From Pseudomonadota bacterium (GTDB lineage Bacteria > Myxococcota_A > UBA796 > GCA-2862545), in assembly GCA_023954855.1 (NCBI GenBank), contig JAGSGY010000060.1, positions 1 to 34,265 on the forward strand: 34,265 nt of DNA. The letters are read 5' to 3'. Shown here piece by piece: positions 1,695 to 12,407 of this stretch. The notes under the pieces were generated by a model. That model was not told the DNA's origin, did no database searches, and saw only the letters and a list, made by a program, of their open reading frames with translations. The position numbers were made by a program, and so were the translations under genes. Position 1 is the first letter of the stretch. Each line of letters begins with the position of its first letter.

Positions 1695-3419
1695 ATGGCG
1701 CGCGGTACTCTGCAGGCGATGGACTCCTCGACCCACCTTGAGCGGTTGCTTACGCTTCTTGATCGGCCCCTTCGTCCAGATCTGGACGACCGGACGCGCT
1801 GGAGTGCCCGGCTCGGCGTGCTGATCGCGGTGGTCATCGCCCTTCTACTCCTTGCCGTCTCGCCGCTATTTGCGTATGCCGTCGGCCTGCCGCTGATCGG
1901 CGTCTCATGCATCGTGACGGGTGCGCTCTTTCTTGTGCTGGCGCGGTCATGGGGCACGCTGGGTCACCACGTCGCGCTGCCTGTGCTGCTCGGTCTTTGC
2001 TTCGCCCTCGAGACCGTCGCCTTGCTGACCCATGGCGGTGCGGAATCCCCGTTCATCGCGTTCGTCATCTTTCCGGTGCTCTATGCGGCCCTACTTGGCA
2101 CCCGTCGCCTGGGCATGCTCACCGCCGCCTTTGCCATCGTCTACAGCACGGCGTTCAGCCTGATCCCTGCGAGCGTGGACGTCGGACAGCCCCCCGAGGC
2201 GCAGCTGTTCTGGCTCGTGTCGATCACACCGATGGTCCTACTCGGCGGCACGATTGTCGGCGTGATGGCCGAGCTTCGGGCTGAAGCTGCCGAGAAGGCA
2301 CTTCAGGCTCAGGCCGACGCCGAGGCCGCCCAAGTCCTCGCAGAACAGGCGAGCCACGCCAAAAGCGACTTTCTCGCAGTGGCCTCGCACGAGATGCGCA
2401 GCCCCTTGGCGGGCATTCTCGGCGCGAGCGAACTCCTGCTGCGCGAGACCAACGACCCCGAGTCCGTCACCCACTGGGCCTCGGTGATCGCCGAGTCCGG
2501 ACGCCGCATGGCCGCCCTGGTCGACGACCTACTGGACTTCAAGCGCATCGAGCTCGGGGAGGTGCGCCTCAAGGACGAGCCCTTCTCCCCGGCCGCGCTG
2601 ATCACCGAGGTGGTGGCGCTGCTTCGGGAGACGCCGAAGGGTCAAGCCTCCACGGTGCGGGTGACCCTGGGAGCCGATCTCGCTCGCGGCGTACGAGGAG
2701 ACGCAGATCGCGTGCGCCAGGTGCTGATCAACCTCATCGGCAACGCGCTCAAGTTCAGCGACGGCGAGGAGGTCACGGTGGTCGCGAGCGAGTCGCTCAC
2801 CATCGATGTCTGCGACAAGGGACCGGGTGTCGATCCGCAAATCCGGGCGACCCTCTTCCAACCGTTCGTGCGGGGCGACTCGGGACCGGATCGAAATTCA
2901 GGGGGTACAGGGCTCGGCCTGGCCATCTCACAGCGTCTCGCACATGCCATGGATGGCGAGCTGCACCTACTCGACAGCGAGGTCGGTGCGCACTTTCGAC
3001 TGGAGCTCGACCTCGAATCCGCCGACGTTCCAGAGCTCGAACCGAGCCTCAATGGGGCGAATCGACCCCTCAGCGTGCTGGTGGTGGACGATGAACCCCT
3101 GACTCGCGACATCGCCGTCCGCATGCTCGAGCACTCCGGCCACGCCCCCCTCCAGGCGAACAGCGGGGCCGCAGCGCTCGCCGCGTGCGCCATCGCCCTG
3201 CCGGACCTCGTACTTCTCGACTGGCACATGCCGGGTCTGGATGGCTTCCAGACGGCTACCCAGCTTCTCGAGGCCTATCCGGACCTGCAGGTCGTAGGCT
3301 TCACCGCGAGCACCGCACCCGAGGAACACGAGCGCGCTGCAGAGTCGGGCATGACCACGGTGCTGCAGAAGCCGATGAGCCTCAAGTCCCTGCGGGCGAT
3401 TCTGGCGGACGCGTCCTGA
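1695..3419 (+). CDS. Membrane hybrid sensor histidine kinase with C-terminal receiver
   Basis: A 574-aa protein. Residues about 40-195 are very hydrophobic and can form roughly six membrane helices with little periplasmic loop. A short coiled linker follows (AEAAEKALQAQADAEAAQ). The HisKA dimerisation domain has the H-box ASHEMRSPLAG (phospho-acceptor His232). The HATPase domain has the N-box LINLIGNALKF, G1 DKGPGVD and G2 GTGLGLAIS. A receiver domain spans about 459-574, with acidic residues VVDDE, phospho-acceptor Asp509 (LVLLDWHMPG) and Lys559 (QKP). With no HPt or output domain here, signal is probably passed on to another protein or the receiver tunes the kinase. ATG 1719 is a possible alternative start; neither has a strong ribosome site. 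The stop overlaps the next gene's ATG by one base (TGATG), so coupling to the kinase is likely. Confidence 0.9.
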   Translation: MARGTLQAMDSSTHLERLLTLLDRPLRPDLDDRTRWSARLGVLIAVVIALLLLAVSPLFAYAVGLPLIGVSCIVTGALFLVLARSWGTLGHHVALPVLLGLCFALETVALLTHGGAESPFIAFVIFPVLYAALLGTRRLGMLTAAFAIVYSTAFSLIPASVDVGQPPEAQLFWLVSITPMVLLGGTIVGVMAELRAEAAEKALQAQADAEAAQVLAEQASHAKSDFLAVASHEMRSPLAGILGASELLLRETNDPESVTHWASVIAESGRRMAALVDDLLDFKRIELGEVRLKDEPFSPAALITEVVALLRETPKGQASTVRVTLGADLARGVRGDADRVRQVLINLIGNALKFSDGEEVTVVASESLTIDVCDKGPGVDPQIRATLFQPFVRGDSGPDRNSGGTGLGLAISQRLAHAMDGELHLLDSEVGAHFRLELDLESADVPELEPSLNGANRPLSVLVVDDEPLTRDIAVRMLEHSGHAPLQANSGAAALAACAIALPDLVLLDWHMPGLDGFQTATQLLEAYPDLQVVGFTASTAPEEHERAAESGMTTVLQKPMSLKSLRAILADAS

Positions 3420-5266: not shown

Positions 5267-5518
5267 ATGGGCTTCCGACGCTCACTGGACACGCTGATCG
5301 CGGGCCTCGATCCCGAGAAGCACCGGGTCGAGATCAAGACACTGAAGCGCTGCCGCACGCTCGAGCAGCTCGACGCCCTCGGCAACCAATGGCTCACGCC
5401 CGGGAGCCGAGATCCCCGCTTGAAGCTGATTAAGCACCACACCGGCACCTTCCTTGTGCTCGAGTTCGTGGACGGATGGGGCACGACGATGTCGCAAGCG
5501 GATTTCTGGCGCCGATGA
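5267..5518 (+). CDS. 83-aa protein of unknown function between two Ser/Thr kinases
   Basis: I do not recognise a family. The protein starts MGFRRSLDTLIAGLDPEK and ends WGTTMSQADFWRR. It is soluble, basic in its middle (VEIKTLKRCRTLEQLDALG), and has no signal peptide, membrane segment or metal motif. It is likely real because it has a good ribosome site (GGAGG at 5255), the stop-start overlap ATGA (5515-5518) with the downstream kinase, and a matching position inside a signalling operon. It may be a partner or regulator of one of the kinases, but that is inference from position only. Confidence 0.68.
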   Translation: MGFRRSLDTLIAGLDPEKHRVEIKTLKRCRTLEQLDALGNQWLTPGSRDPRLKLIKHHTGTFLVLEFVDGWGTTMSQADFWRR

Positions 5519-7728
5519 AAGTCGATACCCTACGCACCAAGCTCCCCCTGCTCGCCAACTCTCTCGACCAGCGCTGGAAGCAGTGGATAGACGCCGGCGG
5601 GCGTGACGATGTCGCCGACTTCCTGGCCCATCTGGTCGAGCGCGGCGTGGTGGCCGAGGACCAAGCCCGCGGCGCCATCACCAACATGGAAGTGGCGTTC
5701 ACACTGTCCGAGGCCAACGCCGTCCCCCAGGGTCCGCGCTACCACAAGTTCGGCTTGCTCGGCCGAGGCGCCATGGGCGAGGTGCACCTGGCCTGGGACC
5801 GCAGCCTGGGCCGAAACGTCGCCGTGAAGTCGCTGGACCCAAGCCTGGTCTCTGAGCCAGCCCTCGCATCGCGCTTTCATCAAGAAGCCCAGATCACCGC
5901 ACAGCTCGACCACCCCGGCATCGTGCCGATCTACGCCATCGAGACCCGGCAGGACGGCACCCCTGCGTACTCGATGAAGCTCGTCCGCGGCCAGGAGCTC
6001 GCCGATGGCATCAAGGCAGCGCGAGCCGCATGGGATGCCGGCGTCACCGAGCCCGAAGATCTCGAGCTCACTGGGCGCCTGGTGACCTTCCTCTCCGTGT
6101 GCGCGGCCATGTCCTATGCCCACGAGCGTGGCGTGCTTCACCGCGACCTCAAGCCGGCGAACATCATGCTCGGCGCGCACCACGAAGTCCTCGTGATGGA
6201 CTGGGGAATCGCGAAGGTCGTGGGCACCAACGAGGACATCCTGCCCGAGTCCGCCGGTAGCCGAGCGATGCAGACCCAGGTCGGCACCATCCTCGGCACG
6301 CCCAACTACATGTCGCCCGAACAAGCGGCCGGCGACAACCAGGCCCTGACGGTCAAGAGCGACCAATACGCCCTCGGCCTAATCCTGCAAGAACTGGTCA
6401 CCCTCAACCGCGCCATCACTGCAAAGAATGCCGTGCACGCGGTCATGCGCGCCCAGGCGGCCTCTCGCGACGAGATGGTGCACTACGCCGGTCAGCCCGT
6501 GGCCCGCGAGCTCATCGCCATCGTGGGCAAGGCCTGTTCCGGCAATCCCGACGACCGCTACTCCGATGTCGAGGCGCTGGCGGATGACGTGCGCCGCTAC
6601 CTTCGCGACGAGCCCGTTGAGGCCGCTCCCGACACGACTGGACAGAAGCTCCAGCGCTGGGTTGGGCGGCATCGGCAGCTCGCCATCTCGCTCGGCGTCG
6701 GCCTGTTCGGGTTGGTGTTCGCCGTGTCTCTGCTCGGAGTGCTCGGCACCACCCTCGCCGTGCAAGCGGGCCAGGTGCGCACCATGAAGCGCGAGGAGGC
6801 CCTCGCCGACGCCATCATGCAGGTCACCGAGCAAGCCGGCCGCATCGATCGCGAGATGTCTCGCTACGAAGCCCTCGTCACCGGCATCGCCTTCGCTGCG
6901 GAGGAGGAGTTGGCCCGCGACCCCGATCCCAACGCCGAGGTCTACAACTCGAGCAACTTCCTGGCCCCTGACCGCACCCACTCGGCCTTCTACGACTCCG
7001 AGATCAGCGTCACCTACCCGGACATCAACGCCTCGCCCACCACGCCGGCCGAGACGATCGAGCGCGAGTCCAAGCAACTGGCGATGGTCGGCCCGGCGCT
7101 GACTCAGGCCCTGCTTCTCTCAAAGGGCTTTGCGGCCTCGGCCCTGCCCATCGAAGAGCGCCGCGCCCTGATCGGAGCTGGCGGTGTGCCGGCGGTGTGG
7201 ACCTACGTCGGCACCGAGCACGGCATGGTCGCGGGCATGCCCGGCATCTCCGAATACGACGAGGGCTACGATCCCCGTGAGCGGCCCTGGTACAAGGCCG
7301 GGCGCGCCGCAGAAGGCACGTCTTGGACGGCACTCGACCTCGATGAAGGCGGCATGGGCTTGCTGCTGAGCTGCGTGCTCGCCATCCACAATCACGCGGG
7401 CGAGATCGCCGGCGTCGCCGCCCTCGACCTGAGCTTCAACTACGTGGTCGAAGAGATGCTCGCGATCGACCAGTACCCCGAAGCCGAGGTGTTCCTGGTC
7501 AACCGCGAGGGCTTCGTGGTCGCAAGCTCGGACATGGGGGCGACGGCCCGTACGATGGCCAGCTACAAGCCCGAGATGATGGAGTATCCGGAGGTTCTCG
7601 AGCGCATCGAGCAGCCCTCGGGACACCTCGACGTCGACAGCGATCTGTTCCTGTGGCGTCGCCTGCAGACCGTCGACTGGGCCTACGTCGTCCGGGTGCC
7701 TGCGGAGCGGGTCTCCAGGCACGAATAG
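5515..7728 (+). CDS. Ser/Thr protein kinase with extracytoplasmic dCache sensor domain
   Basis: A 737-aa protein with its start fixed by an ATGA overlap with the 83-aa gene. About 75 N-terminal residues precede the kinase domain: glycine loop GRGAMG (83-88), Lys105, catalytic loop HRDLKPAN (Asp211), DWG in place of DFG (Asp229), and a TPNYMSPEQ activation/APE-like region. One membrane helix (about 388-412, LGVGLFGLVFAVSLLGVLG) leads to a large outside domain of about 300 residues. That domain carries the dCache signature YDPRERPWYKAG and a second half with AALDLSFNYVVEEML and VFLVNREGFVVASS. dCache domains usually bind small ligands such as amino acids or carboxylates in chemoreceptors and histidine kinases. 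Here the reading implied is ligand sensing outside and Ser/Thr phosphorylation inside. The ligand cannot be read from sequence. Confidence 0.9.
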   Translation: MKVDTLRTKLPLLANSLDQRWKQWIDAGGRDDVADFLAHLVERGVVAEDQARGAITNMEVAFTLSEANAVPQGPRYHKFGLLGRGAMGEVHLAWDRSLGRNVAVKSLDPSLVSEPALASRFHQEAQITAQLDHPGIVPIYAIETRQDGTPAYSMKLVRGQELADGIKAARAAWDAGVTEPEDLELTGRLVTFLSVCAAMSYAHERGVLHRDLKPANIMLGAHHEVLVMDWGIAKVVGTNEDILPESAGSRAMQTQVGTILGTPNYMSPEQAAGDNQALTVKSDQYALGLILQELVTLNRAITAKNAVHAVMRAQAASRDEMVHYAGQPVARELIAIVGKACSGNPDDRYSDVEALADDVRRYLRDEPVEAAPDTTGQKLQRWVGRHRQLAISLGVGLFGLVFAVSLLGVLGTTLAVQAGQVRTMKREEALADAIMQVTEQAGRIDREMSRYEALVTGIAFAAEEELARDPDPNAEVYNSSNFLAPDRTHSAFYDSEISVTYPDINASPTTPAETIERESKQLAMVGPALTQALLLSKGFAASALPIEERRALIGAGGVPAVWTYVGTEHGMVAGMPGISEYDEGYDPRERPWYKAGRAAEGTSWTALDLDEGGMGLLLSCVLAIHNHAGEIAGVAALDLSFNYVVEEMLAIDQYPEAEVFLVNREGFVVASSDMGATARTMASYKPEMMEYPEVLERIEQPSGHLDVDSDLFLWRRLQTVDWAYVVRVPAERVSRHE

Positions 7729-7812: not shown

Positions 7813-8853
7813 GTGTCCCTTCCGCTCCACCAGCGACGCGCAGAAGCCGAGCTCACAGCACTGAAGATCCGCATGGGCCGGATTGCAGGAGCGGTGCGCG
7901 CGGCGATCGAGAAGGCCGCTGACGGGGTCATCCATCGCGACGAAGAGCGGCTCTACGAGGTGATGCTCGGCGACCACCCGATCAACCGGGACGTGCGCGA
8001 CCTCGACGCCGCAGCCCACGCCTTCGTAGCCCTTCACCTTCCGGCGGCGACCTCGCTGCGTACGGTCAGCTCGATTCTTCGCCTCAACATCGCGCTCGAG
8101 CGGGTTGGCGACTACGCGGTCACCATCGGTCGAGTCGGTGTGCAGCTCGAGCGCGAGCCGCAAGAGTGGATTCGCGAGGCCATCCAAGAGCTCAGCCTCG
8201 AGACCACCCGCATGCTGGACCTCGCGGTGCGCGCCTTCGTCGCCGACGACACCGAGCTTGCGACCCGCACCATGCACCTCGCCGAGCCCATCGACACGCT
8301 GCACGAGGCCTTCTTCAACCGCCTCACCGCCGGCGACAACCCGCTGCCGACGGCCGAGCAGGTCCGCTGGATCACAGTAGCCGGCCGCCTCGAGCGCGTC
8401 AGCGACCAGGCCTTCAACGTCTGCGAAGAGACGCTGTTCGCCACGACGGGTCGCATCAAGCGCCTCAATCCCTATCGCATCCTGTTCACCGACCCCGGTG
8501 ACGGCTTCACGAGCCGCATTGCCCTCGCCCTCGCCGAGCGGCGCTTTCACGGGAGGGCCGAGTTCGCGGCGGCGTCATGGAGCCCCGAGCCCGCGGCGAG
8601 CGCGCGTCTCGCCGAGGTCACCGATCTCGAGGTCGACCGGTCACCACCACTCGCACTTCCCAACTTCGACGAGGACCGCTACCACGTGGTCATCGCTCTG
8701 GCACCGGGTGTCTCTGCCCTGGGACGGCTGCCGTTCCACACCGTCCGCCAGACCTGGGAGATCGGCGCTGCCGATGTCGAAGACGTCGTTCGGGAACTCG
8801 ACAGCCGCATCGGGGACCTGCTCCAGCTGCTGTGCGGGGACGAGGTCACCTAG
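7813..8853 (+). CDS. PhoU-like protein fused to a degenerate ArsC/LMW-phosphatase-like domain
   Basis: A 346-aa protein with a GTG start behind a strong AGGAGG. Residues 1 to about 215 look like PhoU, a six-helix protein that binds metal through ExxxD motifs: LERVGDYAVTIG (Glu96, Asp100) and LERVSDQAFNVCEE (Glu194, Asp198). PhoU normally links the PstSCAB phosphate transporter to a PhoR-type kinase. Residues about 221-346 resemble the ArsC/low-molecular-weight phosphatase fold, with an N-terminal strand plus P-loop position (YRILFTDPGDGFTSRIA) and the later YHVVIALAPGVSALG and RELDSRIGDLLQLL segments. The family loop reads C-x-G-N-x-x-R-S; here the catalytic Cys is Asp227 and the Arg is Thr233, so phosphatase or arsenate reductase activity is not expected. 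The stop directly abuts the permease start. The PhoU call is firm; the C-terminal call is by eye. Confidence 0.8.
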   Translation: MSLPLHQRRAEAELTALKIRMGRIAGAVRAAIEKAADGVIHRDEERLYEVMLGDHPINRDVRDLDAAAHAFVALHLPAATSLRTVSSILRLNIALERVGDYAVTIGRVGVQLEREPQEWIREAIQELSLETTRMLDLAVRAFVADDTELATRTMHLAEPIDTLHEAFFNRLTAGDNPLPTAEQVRWITVAGRLERVSDQAFNVCEETLFATTGRIKRLNPYRILFTDPGDGFTSRIALALAERRFHGRAEFAAASWSPEPAASARLAEVTDLEVDRSPPLALPNFDEDRYHVVIALAPGVSALGRLPFHTVRQTWEIGAADVEDVVRELDSRIGDLLQLLCGDEVT

Positions 8854-9357
8854 GTGCCCAAGCGCCTCGGCCTGTTGCTTGCTGTGACCGCTCTCGCTGC
8901 GCTCCCTGGCGCCCGAGCTGTGTCTGGACGGTGGAGCGATGCGCCCGTGTTCGTCTCGGTCTTCTGGCTGCTGGCGCTGTGCATCGCCGCGGCAGCGGCT
9001 GTCCGGGGGCTCGAACCCCCTCGCGATGTCCGGGTGGGACCGCTCTCCCCCATCCTCGCCGGAGTGCTCTCCGCCGGGCTGGTGTTCTGGAATCCGAGCG
9101 TGGTCGGCGTCACTCTTGCCGTCGTGCCCCTGGCCTTGGCCACCCACCTGAGGGTTCTGCACGCGGTGCGCCGAAGCTTGCTGGACGTGCCCTTCGAGCA
9201 GTGGGAAGCCGCTTGGCTGCTCGGTGCATCCAGGTCCCAGGCCATCCGGCATGTCGCCCTGCCTGCGGCAAACAAGCTTCGCGGTCGGCTCGCGAAGGCC
9301 GGGGCTGAAGTCGCACTCGGGCTGGCCCCAACCCTGGCCGTGCTGGTGCTGACGTGA
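8854..9357 (+). CDS. Short ABC transporter permease, PstA/PstC-like (BPD_transp_1)
   Basis: A 167-aa hydrophobic protein with a GTG start immediately after the PhoU stop. The EAA loop that docks permeases on their ATPase is clear: QWEAAWLLGASRSQAIRHVALP (EAA 118-120, Gly124, LP 136-137). Three to four membrane helices precede it and one follows (about 148-166). Typical PstA/PstC subunits are about 280-320 aa with six helices, so this one is roughly half size. It has the coupling loop but little room for a full translocation path; a dimer would have about eight to ten helices. Its stop overlaps the next start as GTGA. Given the PhoU and PstB-like neighbours, a phosphate-type origin is inferred. 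Confidence 0.75.
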   Translation: MPKRLGLLLAVTALAALPGARAVSGRWSDAPVFVSVFWLLALCIAAAAAVRGLEPPRDVRVGPLSPILAGVLSAGLVFWNPSVVGVTLAVVPLALATHLRVLHAVRRSLLDVPFEQWEAAWLLGASRSQAIRHVALPAANKLRGRLAKAGAEVALGLAPTLAVLVLT

Positions 9358-10028
9358 ACGCGCTGTCGGTCGATTGCAGCGCGCTCGAGGTGCGCTGGAG
9401 GGGACGCCTGGTCCTCGGACCCTTACAGCTGGCGATCGACGCCGGTGAGCGCGTCTCTCTTCACGGCAGCAGCGGCAGTGGCAAGTCGGGACTCTTTCAG
9501 GCCATCGTCCGAAGAGATGCCTACGACCGTGACCTTCGCGTCACCGGCCGTCTCAGCATCGGAGGGCAGAGTGCCTTTGCCGAGCGCCGCCTCGACCGCC
9601 ATCGACGTCGGGTAGGCATGGTCACCGCCTTTCCGACGATGCTTCCAGGCACCGTCTACGACAACGTGGCCTTCGCGCCTCGCATGGCGGGCCTGCGCGA
9701 CCGAAGCGCCGTTGACGCCAGGGTCGAAGCCGCTCTACGCACTGCGGCGGTCTGGGAAGACGTCAAGGACCGTCTCTCCGAGCCGCCGACTCGCTTCTCG
9801 GCGGGTCAGCAGCAGCGCATCACTATCGCCCGCGCCTTGGCACAGCAGCCTGGGCTGTTGCTTCTCGATCAGCCGTTCACGCTCCTCGACACCGTGACGG
9901 CGCAGACCCTCGAGAGTGCACTCCAGCAGCTTCCGGACACGACCATCATCATGGCCACCCCCGATGAACGCCGCGCCTCCCGCTTCGCTGCACGGGTCGT
10001 CGAGCTTCACGGCGGCAGCCATGCATGA
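9354..10028 (+). CDS. PstB-like ABC ATPase with altered catalytic residues
   Basis: A 224-aa protein with a GTG start in a GTGA overlap. The closest pattern is PstB: MVTAFPTMLPGTVYDNVAFAPR matches the PstB stretch MVFQxPNPFPxSIYDNVAYGPR. The Walker A motif GSSGSGKS (38-45) and the signature RFSAGQQQRITIARAL are kept. Three hydrolysis residues are changed: the Q-loop Gln is Ala92, the Walker B catalytic Glu is Gln173 (LLLLDQP), and the switch His is Pro203 (MATPDE in place of VTHN). Family knowledge says the Glu-to-Gln change alone traps ATP in many ABC ATPases. The protein probably binds ATP but hydrolyses it poorly. It is followed by a second ATPase with the same Glu-to-Gln change. Confidence 0.83.
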   Translation: MNALSVDCSALEVRWRGRLVLGPLQLAIDAGERVSLHGSSGSGKSGLFQAIVRRDAYDRDLRVTGRLSIGGQSAFAERRLDRHRRRVGMVTAFPTMLPGTVYDNVAFAPRMAGLRDRSAVDARVEAALRTAAVWEDVKDRLSEPPTRFSAGQQQRITIARALAQQPGLLLLDQPFTLLDTVTAQTLESALQQLPDTTIIMATPDERRASRFAARVVELHGGSHA

Positions 10029-10680
10029 AGTCACCGCGCGCATCCGCGACCTCTGCGTTGACTACGGCCCCCTGCCGGCGCTGAACGGCGTCAACCTGGA
10101 CCTTCACCACGGGCAGATCACGGCCTTGATTGGCCCCTCTGGAGGCGGCAAGTCGACGCTGCTCCGAGCACTCGCCGGACACCTCCCCGACCACGCATCC
10201 ACACGCGGAGAAGTGGGCACCGAGGAGCCCATTCGCGGCCCCATGGTCACACAGCTTCCGCGGACCGGCTCGCAGCGGCTCGGAACGTGGATTGGTGACG
10301 ACCGCGCCCTCGACGCCGTCGGCCTCTCCTCGGGCACAGCACACGCACGCCTCCGGGACCTGACCCTTCCCGAGCGACAGCTCGCTGCGGTGGCTCGACT
10401 CATCGCCGCGGCCCCACCGCTCTGGCTTCTCGACCAGCCCACTTCCGCGCTGGACGCCGAGGGGACTGCCCGCATCGAAGAGCTGTTGTGGGACGCGCGC
10501 AACCACCACACGCTGCTCTTGGTCACCCACGACCTCGTGCAGGCCCGACGCGCGAGCGATCGCTGTGCCGTGATGCTCAGCGGAGAGGTCATCGAGCACG
10601 CCTCGACCGCCGAGATCTTCGTCACCCCCAAAGACCCCCGCACCGCGGCGTTTGTCGAGGGAAGAAGTGCCGTCCCGTAG
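10021..10680 (+). CDS. Second ABC ATPase of the cassette, with Walker B Glu-to-Gln and weak signature motif
   Basis: A 219-aa protein. ATG 10021 overlaps the preceding gene by 8 bp and starts just before the first conserved strand (VTARIRDLCVDYG). Walker A GPSGGGKST (38-46) and the switch-His segment LLLVTHD are intact. The Walker B motif reads LWLLDQPTSALD, with Gln139 in place of Glu. The ABC signature LSGGQ is replaced by LTLPERQLAAVARL, and the helical domain is short (about 60 residues shorter than PstB). With the upstream ATPase it would form a heterodimer: ATPase 1 brings a good signature motif, ATPase 2 brings an intact switch His, and neither brings a catalytic Glu. The arrangement suits an ATP-binding switch more than a pump. 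Confidence 0.82.
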   Translation: MHEVTARIRDLCVDYGPLPALNGVNLDLHHGQITALIGPSGGGKSTLLRALAGHLPDHASTRGEVGTEEPIRGPMVTQLPRTGSQRLGTWIGDDRALDAVGLSSGTAHARLRDLTLPERQLAAVARLIAAAPPLWLLDQPTSALDAEGTARIEELLWDARNHHTLLLVTHDLVQARRASDRCAVMLSGEVIEHASTAEIFVTPKDPRTAAFVEGRSAVP

Positions 10681-10760: not shown

Positions 10761-11636
10761 ATGCTGCGAGTCGTGACCCACAACGGCCCCTTCCACGCCG
10801 ACGACGTTCTGGCGTTCGGCCTACTCCGCGCCTTCGTCGACGCCGACGCAACCGTGGTGCGCAGCCGCAGCCCCGAAGACTGGGCCGCAGGTGACATCGT
10901 CATCGATGTGGGGGGCACCTATGCCCCGGAGCAGGGACGTTTCGACCACCACCAAGCGTCCTACCAGGGCCCTCTCTCGTCGGCGGGCATGGTGGTGCGC
11001 TGGCTCGAGCACGAGGGCCACATCACCGCCGACCTCTGCGACACCCTGAAGAAGCAGGTGGTCGACTACGTCGACGATGTCGACAATGGCCGTCTGCAGC
11101 CCGCGACCGGCGTGCCCTGCTTCGCCAACCAGGTCCAGGCCTTCAACCACGGCAACGACACCCTCGACGACTTCGACGCCGCCTTCTTCCAGGCCGCCGT
11201 GTTCGCTGAGCGCTACGTTCGCGGTATCGAGCAGGGCCTGCGCGCCATCCAAGCGGCCCACTCCAAGGTCGAAGCGGCCATGCAAGCTGCAGTGGCCAGC
11301 GACTCGAACGTGCTCGCGCTCGCGACCTACTGCAAGTGGAAGCCCGCCTACTTCGAGCTCGGCGGCGCCGACCACCCCACTGAGTACGCGCTCTACCCGG
11401 GCATGGACGGAAAGTGGCACGTCGTAGCCATTCCCCCAGCCCTCGGCGACTTCGCACAGAAGCGGTCGCTTCCCGAAGAGTGGGCTGGCCTGACCGGCTC
11501 CTCCCTCGAGAAGGCCACGGGCGTCTCCGGTGCGAAGTTCTGCCACAAGAATCGGTTCATCGCGGTGTTCATCACCCGCGAGGGCGCACTTGAGGCGCTT
11601 GAGAACTCGGGCCGACGGTGGCGAAAGAAAGTTTGA
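10761..11636 (+). CDS. MYG1/UPF0160-family metal-dependent hydrolase (DHH-like)
   Basis: A 291-aa protein of full family length. The N-terminus VVTHNGPFHADDVLAFGLL and the motif GRFDHHQ (about residues 61-66) are hallmarks of the MYG1 family, whose His and Asp residues form a DHH-like metal site. Later conserved pieces include VDYVDDVDNG and the C-terminal GAKFCHKNRFIAVF. Eukaryotic MYG1 is a 3'-5' RNA exonuclease; bacterial members are mostly uncharacterised. It starts 80 bp after the ABC cassette and has no obvious functional tie to it. Confidence 0.88.
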   Translation: MLRVVTHNGPFHADDVLAFGLLRAFVDADATVVRSRSPEDWAAGDIVIDVGGTYAPEQGRFDHHQASYQGPLSSAGMVVRWLEHEGHITADLCDTLKKQVVDYVDDVDNGRLQPATGVPCFANQVQAFNHGNDTLDDFDAAFFQAAVFAERYVRGIEQGLRAIQAAHSKVEAAMQAAVASDSNVLALATYCKWKPAYFELGGADHPTEYALYPGMDGKWHVVAIPPALGDFAQKRSLPEEWAGLTGSSLEKATGVSGAKFCHKNRFIAVFITREGALEALENSGRRWRKKV

Positions 11637-11687: not shown

Positions 11688-12407
11688 ATGCGCACATCTC
11701 TCATCCTGCTCTTCGCTCTCACGGGCTGCGTCACCGGCGCCGTTGTGTCCGAGGACCCCGCCGAGACGGACACGGACACCGACACCGATGCCGACGCAGA
11801 CACGGACGCCGACGCAGACACGGACGCCGATGCAGACACGGACGCCGACGCAGACACGGACGCCGATGCGGACACGGACGCGGATGCAGACACCGACGCC
11901 GACACCGACACCGACCCGGTAACGACCCACACCCTCTCGCTCGACCTCGACACGCTCTCGATTGACTGGGGTCAGGGCACCCAAGATCAGTGGGGCGTCG
12001 AGGCGTCCATGTACAGCCAAGGCACGGCCGAGCTGGTCATCGCCCGAGGAACGGCAGTCGAGCGCTGCACGGGGACCGTGAACATCCAGTCCGTGGGCGA
12101 CTTCGCGCCGCCATCTGGGGCCACCTACGCGGGATCCGGCGGCTGCCAGGGCGACTGCGACTACCGGTTCGACATCGCGCTAACGACCCAAGATCGCTCA
12201 CTAAACTGGGACTCGAACTGCACGGTCAACGCGATTCCCTCCGTGCGTTGGGGCTTTGTGCTCTACGAGAACGAACTGCTCGCGAACAACGGCGGCTGGC
12301 ACATCGCTTACACCGCTCATGACTGGGACTCGACGTGGGAGTCGGACTTTGGCTGGAACTGGGGCAGCCTCGACGATCCGACCGAAGTCGCCCCACGTAC
12401 CTGGTAG
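11688..12407 (+). CDS. Surface lipoprotein with Asp-rich repeat stalk
   Basis: A 239-aa protein. The signal peptide MRTSLILLFALTGC ends in a lipobox (LTGC), so Cys14 should be lipidated. Residues about 28-76 are an almost pure Asp/Thr/Ala repeat (DADADT units), followed by a folded domain of about 160 residues containing several Cys (ERCTG, GGCQGDCDY, NCTV) that may form disulfides. The acidic stalk probably holds the domain away from the membrane and may bind calcium. Such repeat lipoproteins are common in environmental Myxococcota. I recognise no enzyme motif in the C-terminal domain, which is rich in Trp near its end (WDSTWESDFGWNWG). Confidence 0.85.
   Translation: MRTSLILLFALTGCVTGAVVSEDPAETDTDTDTDADADTDADADTDADADTDADADTDADADTDADADTDADTDTDPVTTHTLSLDLDTLSIDWGQGTQDQWGVEASMYSQGTAELVIARGTAVERCTGTVNIQSVGDFAPPSGATYAGSGGCQGDCDYRFDIALTTQDRSLNWDSNCTVNAIPSVRWGFVLYENELLANNGGWHIAYTAHDWDSTWESDFGWNWGSLDDPTEVAPRTW
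11787..11894 (+). repeat. Six tandem 18-bp repeats encoding DADADT
   Basis: Six in-frame copies close to GACGCCGACGCAGACACG lie inside the lipoprotein gene. Copies differ mainly at third codon positions (GAC/GAT, GCC/GCA/GCG), which suggests selection on the protein as well as slippage. Flanking DTDT units extend the Asp/Thr tract to about 11769-11915. Confidence 0.9.

Follow-up and report, generated by a model that had tools for sequence, protein, structure and literature searches.

The window analyzed here, a stretch of 34,265 nucleotides, carries a four-gene cassette (7813-10680) which, judged from gene order and phylogeny, is derived by loss from an ordinary, complete six-gene Pst-PhoU operon. 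The substitution pattern indicates that all four genes are held by purifying selection in the two genomes that have them. The sequences suggest that the cassette very probably does not transport, because PstS and the second permease are lacking, the remaining permease is truncated, and the catalytic Glu of both ATPases is replaced by Gln. The interpretation that we favor, and consider reasonably probable, is that a Pst complex has been retained as a platform for PhoU that binds ATP and does not transport. One genus of uncultured Myxococcota would thereby seem to offer a natural example of a transporter that was preserved for signaling after the loss of transport.

Organization of the Cassette

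The cassette opens with a gene for a PhoU protein with a C-terminal ArsC/LMW-phosphatase-like domain (7813-8853, + strand; PF01895 and fold matches), followed by those for a half-size permease of 167 residues that stems from PstC or PstA (8854-9357, +; PF00528 and an EAA loop), for ABC1, which stems from PstB1 (9354-10028, +), and for ABC2, which stems from PstB2 (10021-10680, +), the latter two each with PF00005, a Walker A motif, and a Walker B motif reading D-Q. The four genes lie on the same strand without gaps: the permease gene begins on the base directly after the PhoU gene (8853 to 8854), and the permease/ABC1 and ABC1/ABC2 pairs overlap by 4 and 8 bp, respectively. Gene calls and Pfam thus agree with the preliminary description, which had read the region as four tightly coupled genes for PhoU, a half-size EAA-loop permease, and two ABC ATPases, and had missed the second domain of PhoU. 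None of the four genes encodes a PstS-type protein, as was also claimed there; loss of PstS to a contig edge is ruled out by the mid-contig position of the cassette (7.8-10.7 of 34.3 kb). A promoter and terminator scan of the window gave no useful site. Just downstream of the cassette, at 10761-11633, lies a gene for a MYG1-type family protein (PF03690, 184.7 bits).

The PhoU protein matches PF01895 in two stretches (80.7 bits) and keeps the ERVGD and ERVSD motifs, so that both three-helix domains with their ER..D are present. In the AlphaFold2 model (pLDDT 92.9), residues 1-214 form the PhoU domain (Z 30 to P. aeruginosa PhoU, 4q25), and residues 218-341, approximately, adopt the ArsC/LMW-phosphatase fold (Z 16, rmsd 1.9, and 120 aligned residues against ArsC, 2cd7). 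The position of the nucleophilic Cys (CX5R) is occupied by Asp in the window protein and nearly always by Asp, never by Cys, across the PhoU family, which makes this a pseudo-enzyme domain. Such a second domain without the catalytic Cys is common to the whole family; the LMWPc profile matches 32 of 52 members, the window PhoU itself not being among them. No second PhoU was found in the window's genome, and no description of a PhoU-ArsC fusion was found in the open-access literature.

In place of two full-length permeases, PstC and PstA, the cassette has the single 167-residue fragment, which passes the PF00528 cut-off only just (27.1 vs 26.4 bits). It aligns to the core of PstC, including the EAA loop, with the first and last PstC regions absent, and its EAA loop could be aligned with those of PstC and PstA. 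The structure model has low confidence scores (pLDDT 77, pTM 0.56) and resembles the E. coli Pst permease 9k3s_A weakly (Z 5.1, rmsd 6.0, 111 aligned residues, 22% identity); in a fold search with this helical model, unrelated helical proteins outscored permeases.

Nucleotide-Binding Sites of ABC1 and ABC2

The best NCBIfam match of both ATPases is TIGR00972 (PstB), with scores of 161 and 140 bits that lie far below the cut-off of 343. Walker A is intact in both (GSSGSGKSG, 9465-9491, in ABC1 and GPSGGGKST, 10132-10158, in ABC2), and the D-loop is retained. Walker B, on the other hand, reads D-Q in ABC1 (9867-9872) and ABC2 (10432-10437), the Gln being encoded by CAG at 9870-9872 and 10435-10437, respectively. 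This Glu-to-Gln change falls at the position corresponding to E179 of E. coli PstB, and Gln is seen there only in the window and its sister genome, all other PstB1 and PstB2 proteins in the tally having Glu, as do 9 of 9 other ABC proteins sampled from the window's genome. The earlier claim that the hydrolysis residues are changed in both ATPases is thus confirmed, with the same change twice in each of two genomes.

Further changes surround these sites. In ABC1, the Q-loop Gln is replaced by A/P, the LSGGQ signature by FSAGQ, and the switch His by Pro, and the C-terminal tail is missing. ABC2 retains the switch His and has LTLPERQ as its signature, and about 40 residues are gone around the Q-loop and the helical subdomain, the region that contacts the permease in ABC importers. 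The Q-loop and switch His changes of ABC1 and the signature change of ABC2 predate the cassette, these elements being altered already in the ancestral PstB1 and PstB2. We infer that ABC1 and ABC2 would still bind ATP.

Origin from a Six-Gene Pst Operon

When 84,980 species genomes were searched with the PhoU alignment, 80 loci came up. In a genome of the same genus (locus L047, MAG M1803, SBGP01000013.1; the sister genome), the same block is found at 57-71% protein identity with the same Glu-to-Gln changes and truncations, which excludes chance. All 79 other PhoU-type loci (79/79) have the order PstS-PhoU-PstC-PstA-PstB1-PstB2, as far as the sequence reaches, with the catalytic Glu intact; only L107 seems to deviate, its locus being interrupted by a gap in the assembly. 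Their hosts include Myxococcota, Planctomycetota, Acidobacteriota, Gammaproteobacteria, SAR324, and others. The PhoU proteins of the window and the sister genome nest among the Myxococcota sequences of the PhoU tree (100/98), and their stem is its longest inner branch (1.21), after which the two slow to 0.35-0.49. It is the six-gene order of all other loci, together with this nesting, that points to derivation by loss; relative to the ancestral operon, PstS, one permease, the rest of the other permease, and both catalytic Glu residues (now Gln) have been lost.

The PstB1 of the family retains both LSGGQ and the catalytic Glu, but its Q-loop Gln is replaced by Pro and its switch His by Asn; PstB2 keeps Gln, Glu, and His and has LSLEEQ in place of LSGGQ. 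An asymmetric head-to-tail dimer of the two would, judging from these motifs, have one consensus site. The six-gene Pst operon in which PhoU is fused to an ArsC-like domain without Cys and the two PstB paralogues are asymmetric and complementary (L048-L126) occurs in many phyla, and no description of asymmetric PstB pairs or of this operon was found in the open-access literature.

The reduced form is rare. Only two of the 63 genomes of the order have it, namely, the window's genome and the one same-genus MAG, both draft assemblies, and the half permease is present in 2 of 379 genomes sampled in the phylum, belonging to one genus (three more weak matches cover the EAA loop only). The four-gene order is conserved in one same-genus MAG, but the other loci have the six-gene Pst order. 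The preliminary view of a rebuilt Pst/PhoU cassette, very probably non-transporting, stands, with the qualification that relatives of the ancestral type carry a normal PstS and intact ATPases; the complete Pst in relatives means that the cassette is derived, and derivation does not make it ordinary. The further proposals of the preliminary description, namely, a sensory role, phosphate as a possible signal, and kinases as partners, are hypothetical. Synteny of the upstream flank with the sister genome is partial. A hybrid histidine kinase/response regulator encoded at 1728-3413 of the window has a partly syntenic counterpart there.

Proposed Mechanism and the Adjacent Kinase

In the mechanism that we propose, ABC1 and ABC2 would bind ATP and remain clamped by it in a long-lived heterodimer, which the permease fragment would hold at the membrane. 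This platform would bind or free PhoU depending on ATP occupancy or on a ligand, and PhoU would relay the state, with either the neighboring dCache Ser/Thr kinase or the Na/Pi carriers that took the place of Pst as the recipient, so that the signaling half of Pst would outlive the transport half. The ATP-clamped state is a guess: the changes in the signature and the helical subdomain could have weakened NBD dimerization. The E179Q variant of E. coli PstB abolishes transport and signals constitutively, locked in the starvation state, and the Q160K variant fixes the opposite signaling state; E. coli PhoU binds both PstB and PhoR (PMC5775613).

The adjacent kinase, kinase 2 (5515-7728, +), consists of a Ser/Thr protein kinase domain (PF00069, 120 bits) and a dCache domain (PF02743, 53.8 bits) that is probably external. 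Its gene probably starts at 5515 rather than at the previously given 5476, and ends at 7728, 84 bp upstream of PhoU. The preliminary description had placed two Ser/Thr kinases next to the cassette. The adjacency of kinase 2 holds, as it is found at the same place in the sister genome (67% identical), but that of kinase 1 is not kept there, its position being occupied by another gene. The conserved adjacency of kinase 2 in two draft genomes, too few for a statistical case for co-selection, may reflect functional linkage or common descent alike. A transport-free Pst-PhoU signaling complex, with Glu-to-Gln fixed in both ATPases much as in the laboratory mutant E179Q, in which the dCache kinase replaces PstS as the external sensor and PhoR as the output is possible, and we put it forward tentatively. 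As for PhoB as the output, the TIGR02154 cut-off was reached in 0 of 10 genomes, Pst-bearing relatives included, so that this search is uninformative.

Upstream of kinase 2 lies a gene for an 83-residue protein without a Pfam match (5267-5518, +), whose stop overlaps the kinase 2 start by 4 bp (ATGA) and which is possibly the first gene of the same operon. It shares 80% identity with its counterpart in the sister genome, with a dN/dS of 0.17. Of the 63 genomes of the order, 11 encode relatives; all 11 belong to one family, and the nine outside the genus have other gene contexts; as a partner of the cassette the protein was rejected on these unrelated contexts.

Phosphate Supply and the Na/Pi Carriers

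No second Pst or Pit was found in either genome of the genus (no PHO4; PstA never over the cut-off), and no PstA-family match above 47 bits was found in the window's genome. Each of the two genomes has two Na_Pi_cotrans genes. Among 18 genomes of the order, Na_Pi genes occur in none of the 10 with PstA over the cut-off and in 5 of the 8 without it (one-sided Fisher 0.0065, a value inflated by kinship, all five being in one family). Across these 18 genomes, Pst and Na/Pi cotransporters thus appear to exclude each other.

In another possible role of the cassette, PhoU and its pseudo-ATPase partners alone would matter, as a regulator of the Na/Pi carriers, and the neighboring kinase would be unrelated. 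Two Na/Pi genes in both genomes and a cassette PhoU that is the only one found in the window's genome are consistent with such a role, and PhoU-type domains are known to regulate NptA in S. aureus (PMC13170248). However, the permease fragment is conserved too (dN/dS 0.38), kinase 2 lies directly upstream in both genomes, and each PhoU clade pairs with its own transporter family (PMC13170248), the cassette PhoU being of the Pst kind. We regard this alternative as rather unlikely.

A PstS-OmpA fusion encoded on a different contig (L046, 9413-10639, -) is the only PBP_like_2 protein found in the window's genome, and no Pst permease genes were found near it. A predicted lipoprotein-like ORF at 11688-12407 of the window contains a long Asp-Thr-Asp-Ala repeat, and a similar Asp-Thr/Ala run is present in an ORF of L046 (10692-11642, -).

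Selection on the Cassette Genes

Between the window and the sister genome, dN/dS is 0.41 for PhoU, 0.38 for the permease, 0.21 for ABC1, and 0.19 for ABC2, with upper 95% bootstrap limits of 0.54, 0.56, 0.30, and 0.28, respectively, the NG86 dS of 0.8-1.35 making these ratios approximate. Constraint is moderate on PhoU and the permease and strongest on ABC1 and ABC2, despite the missing catalytic residue. Neutral simulation of the ABC genes leads to about 42-43% identity and 4-5 stops each, compared to an observed identity of 67-70% and zero stops.

A decaying Pst remnant, in which the Na/Pi carriers took over transport and the operon is disappearing gene by gene, would account for the PstS and permease already gone, the replaced catalytic residues, and the long stem branch. 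Against it, the dN/dS limits, all below 0.6, indicate that the cassette is not a dying remnant, all four frames are intact in both species at 55-70% protein identity, the stops expected under neutrality are missing, and the Walker A motifs are retained. Decay appears largely refuted by the dN/dS and the intact frames, and we consider it improbable. The case that the preliminary description named as refuting, a decayed remnant in a single genome, does not apply, the four-gene order being present in two with dN/dS well under 1. That the cassette still imports or exports some substrate and hydrolyzes ATP slowly through a non-canonical residue would fit the retained Walker A, D-loop, and one switch His and the presence of the EAA loop, but is very improbable with no binding protein, a single truncated permease, no catalytic Glu at either site, and the helical subdomain of ABC2 cut.

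Comparison with Known Systems

Pst might signal via the transport flux or via the shape of the transporter, a long-standing question hitherto approached with laboratory mutants. If the platform reading is true, the cassette would provide evidence from evolution for the usefulness of conformation or ATP occupancy by itself, and would constitute a small system for studying PhoU-PstB contacts without transport.

With E. coli PstSCAB-PhoU, the cassette shares the PhoU core fold, the PstB-type ATPases, and an EAA-loop permease, and signaling is separable from transport in the E. coli system, in the PstB E179Q and Q160K mutants (PMC5775613). The cassette differs in lacking PstS and a second permease, in having no PhoR known as a partner, and in its two diverged ATPases, both with a natural Glu-to-Gln change. 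The tandem pstB1/pstB2 of Enterococcus faecalis is likewise an adjacent PstB pair in a pst-phoU operon, with unequal roles, but each of its two proteins has all four ATPase motifs in canonical form, and the system imports phosphate (PMC12096839). Closest in descent, the six-gene Pst operons (79 loci) share the PhoU architecture and the PstB1-then-PstB2 order, and differ in having PstS, PstC, PstA, and an intact catalytic Glu in both ATPases. SUR1 and FtsEX, which belong to families unrelated to the cassette and retain hydrolysis or at least one functional ATP site, are non-transporting ABC proteins in which the ABC modules serve regulation, as they would in the present reading of the cassette.
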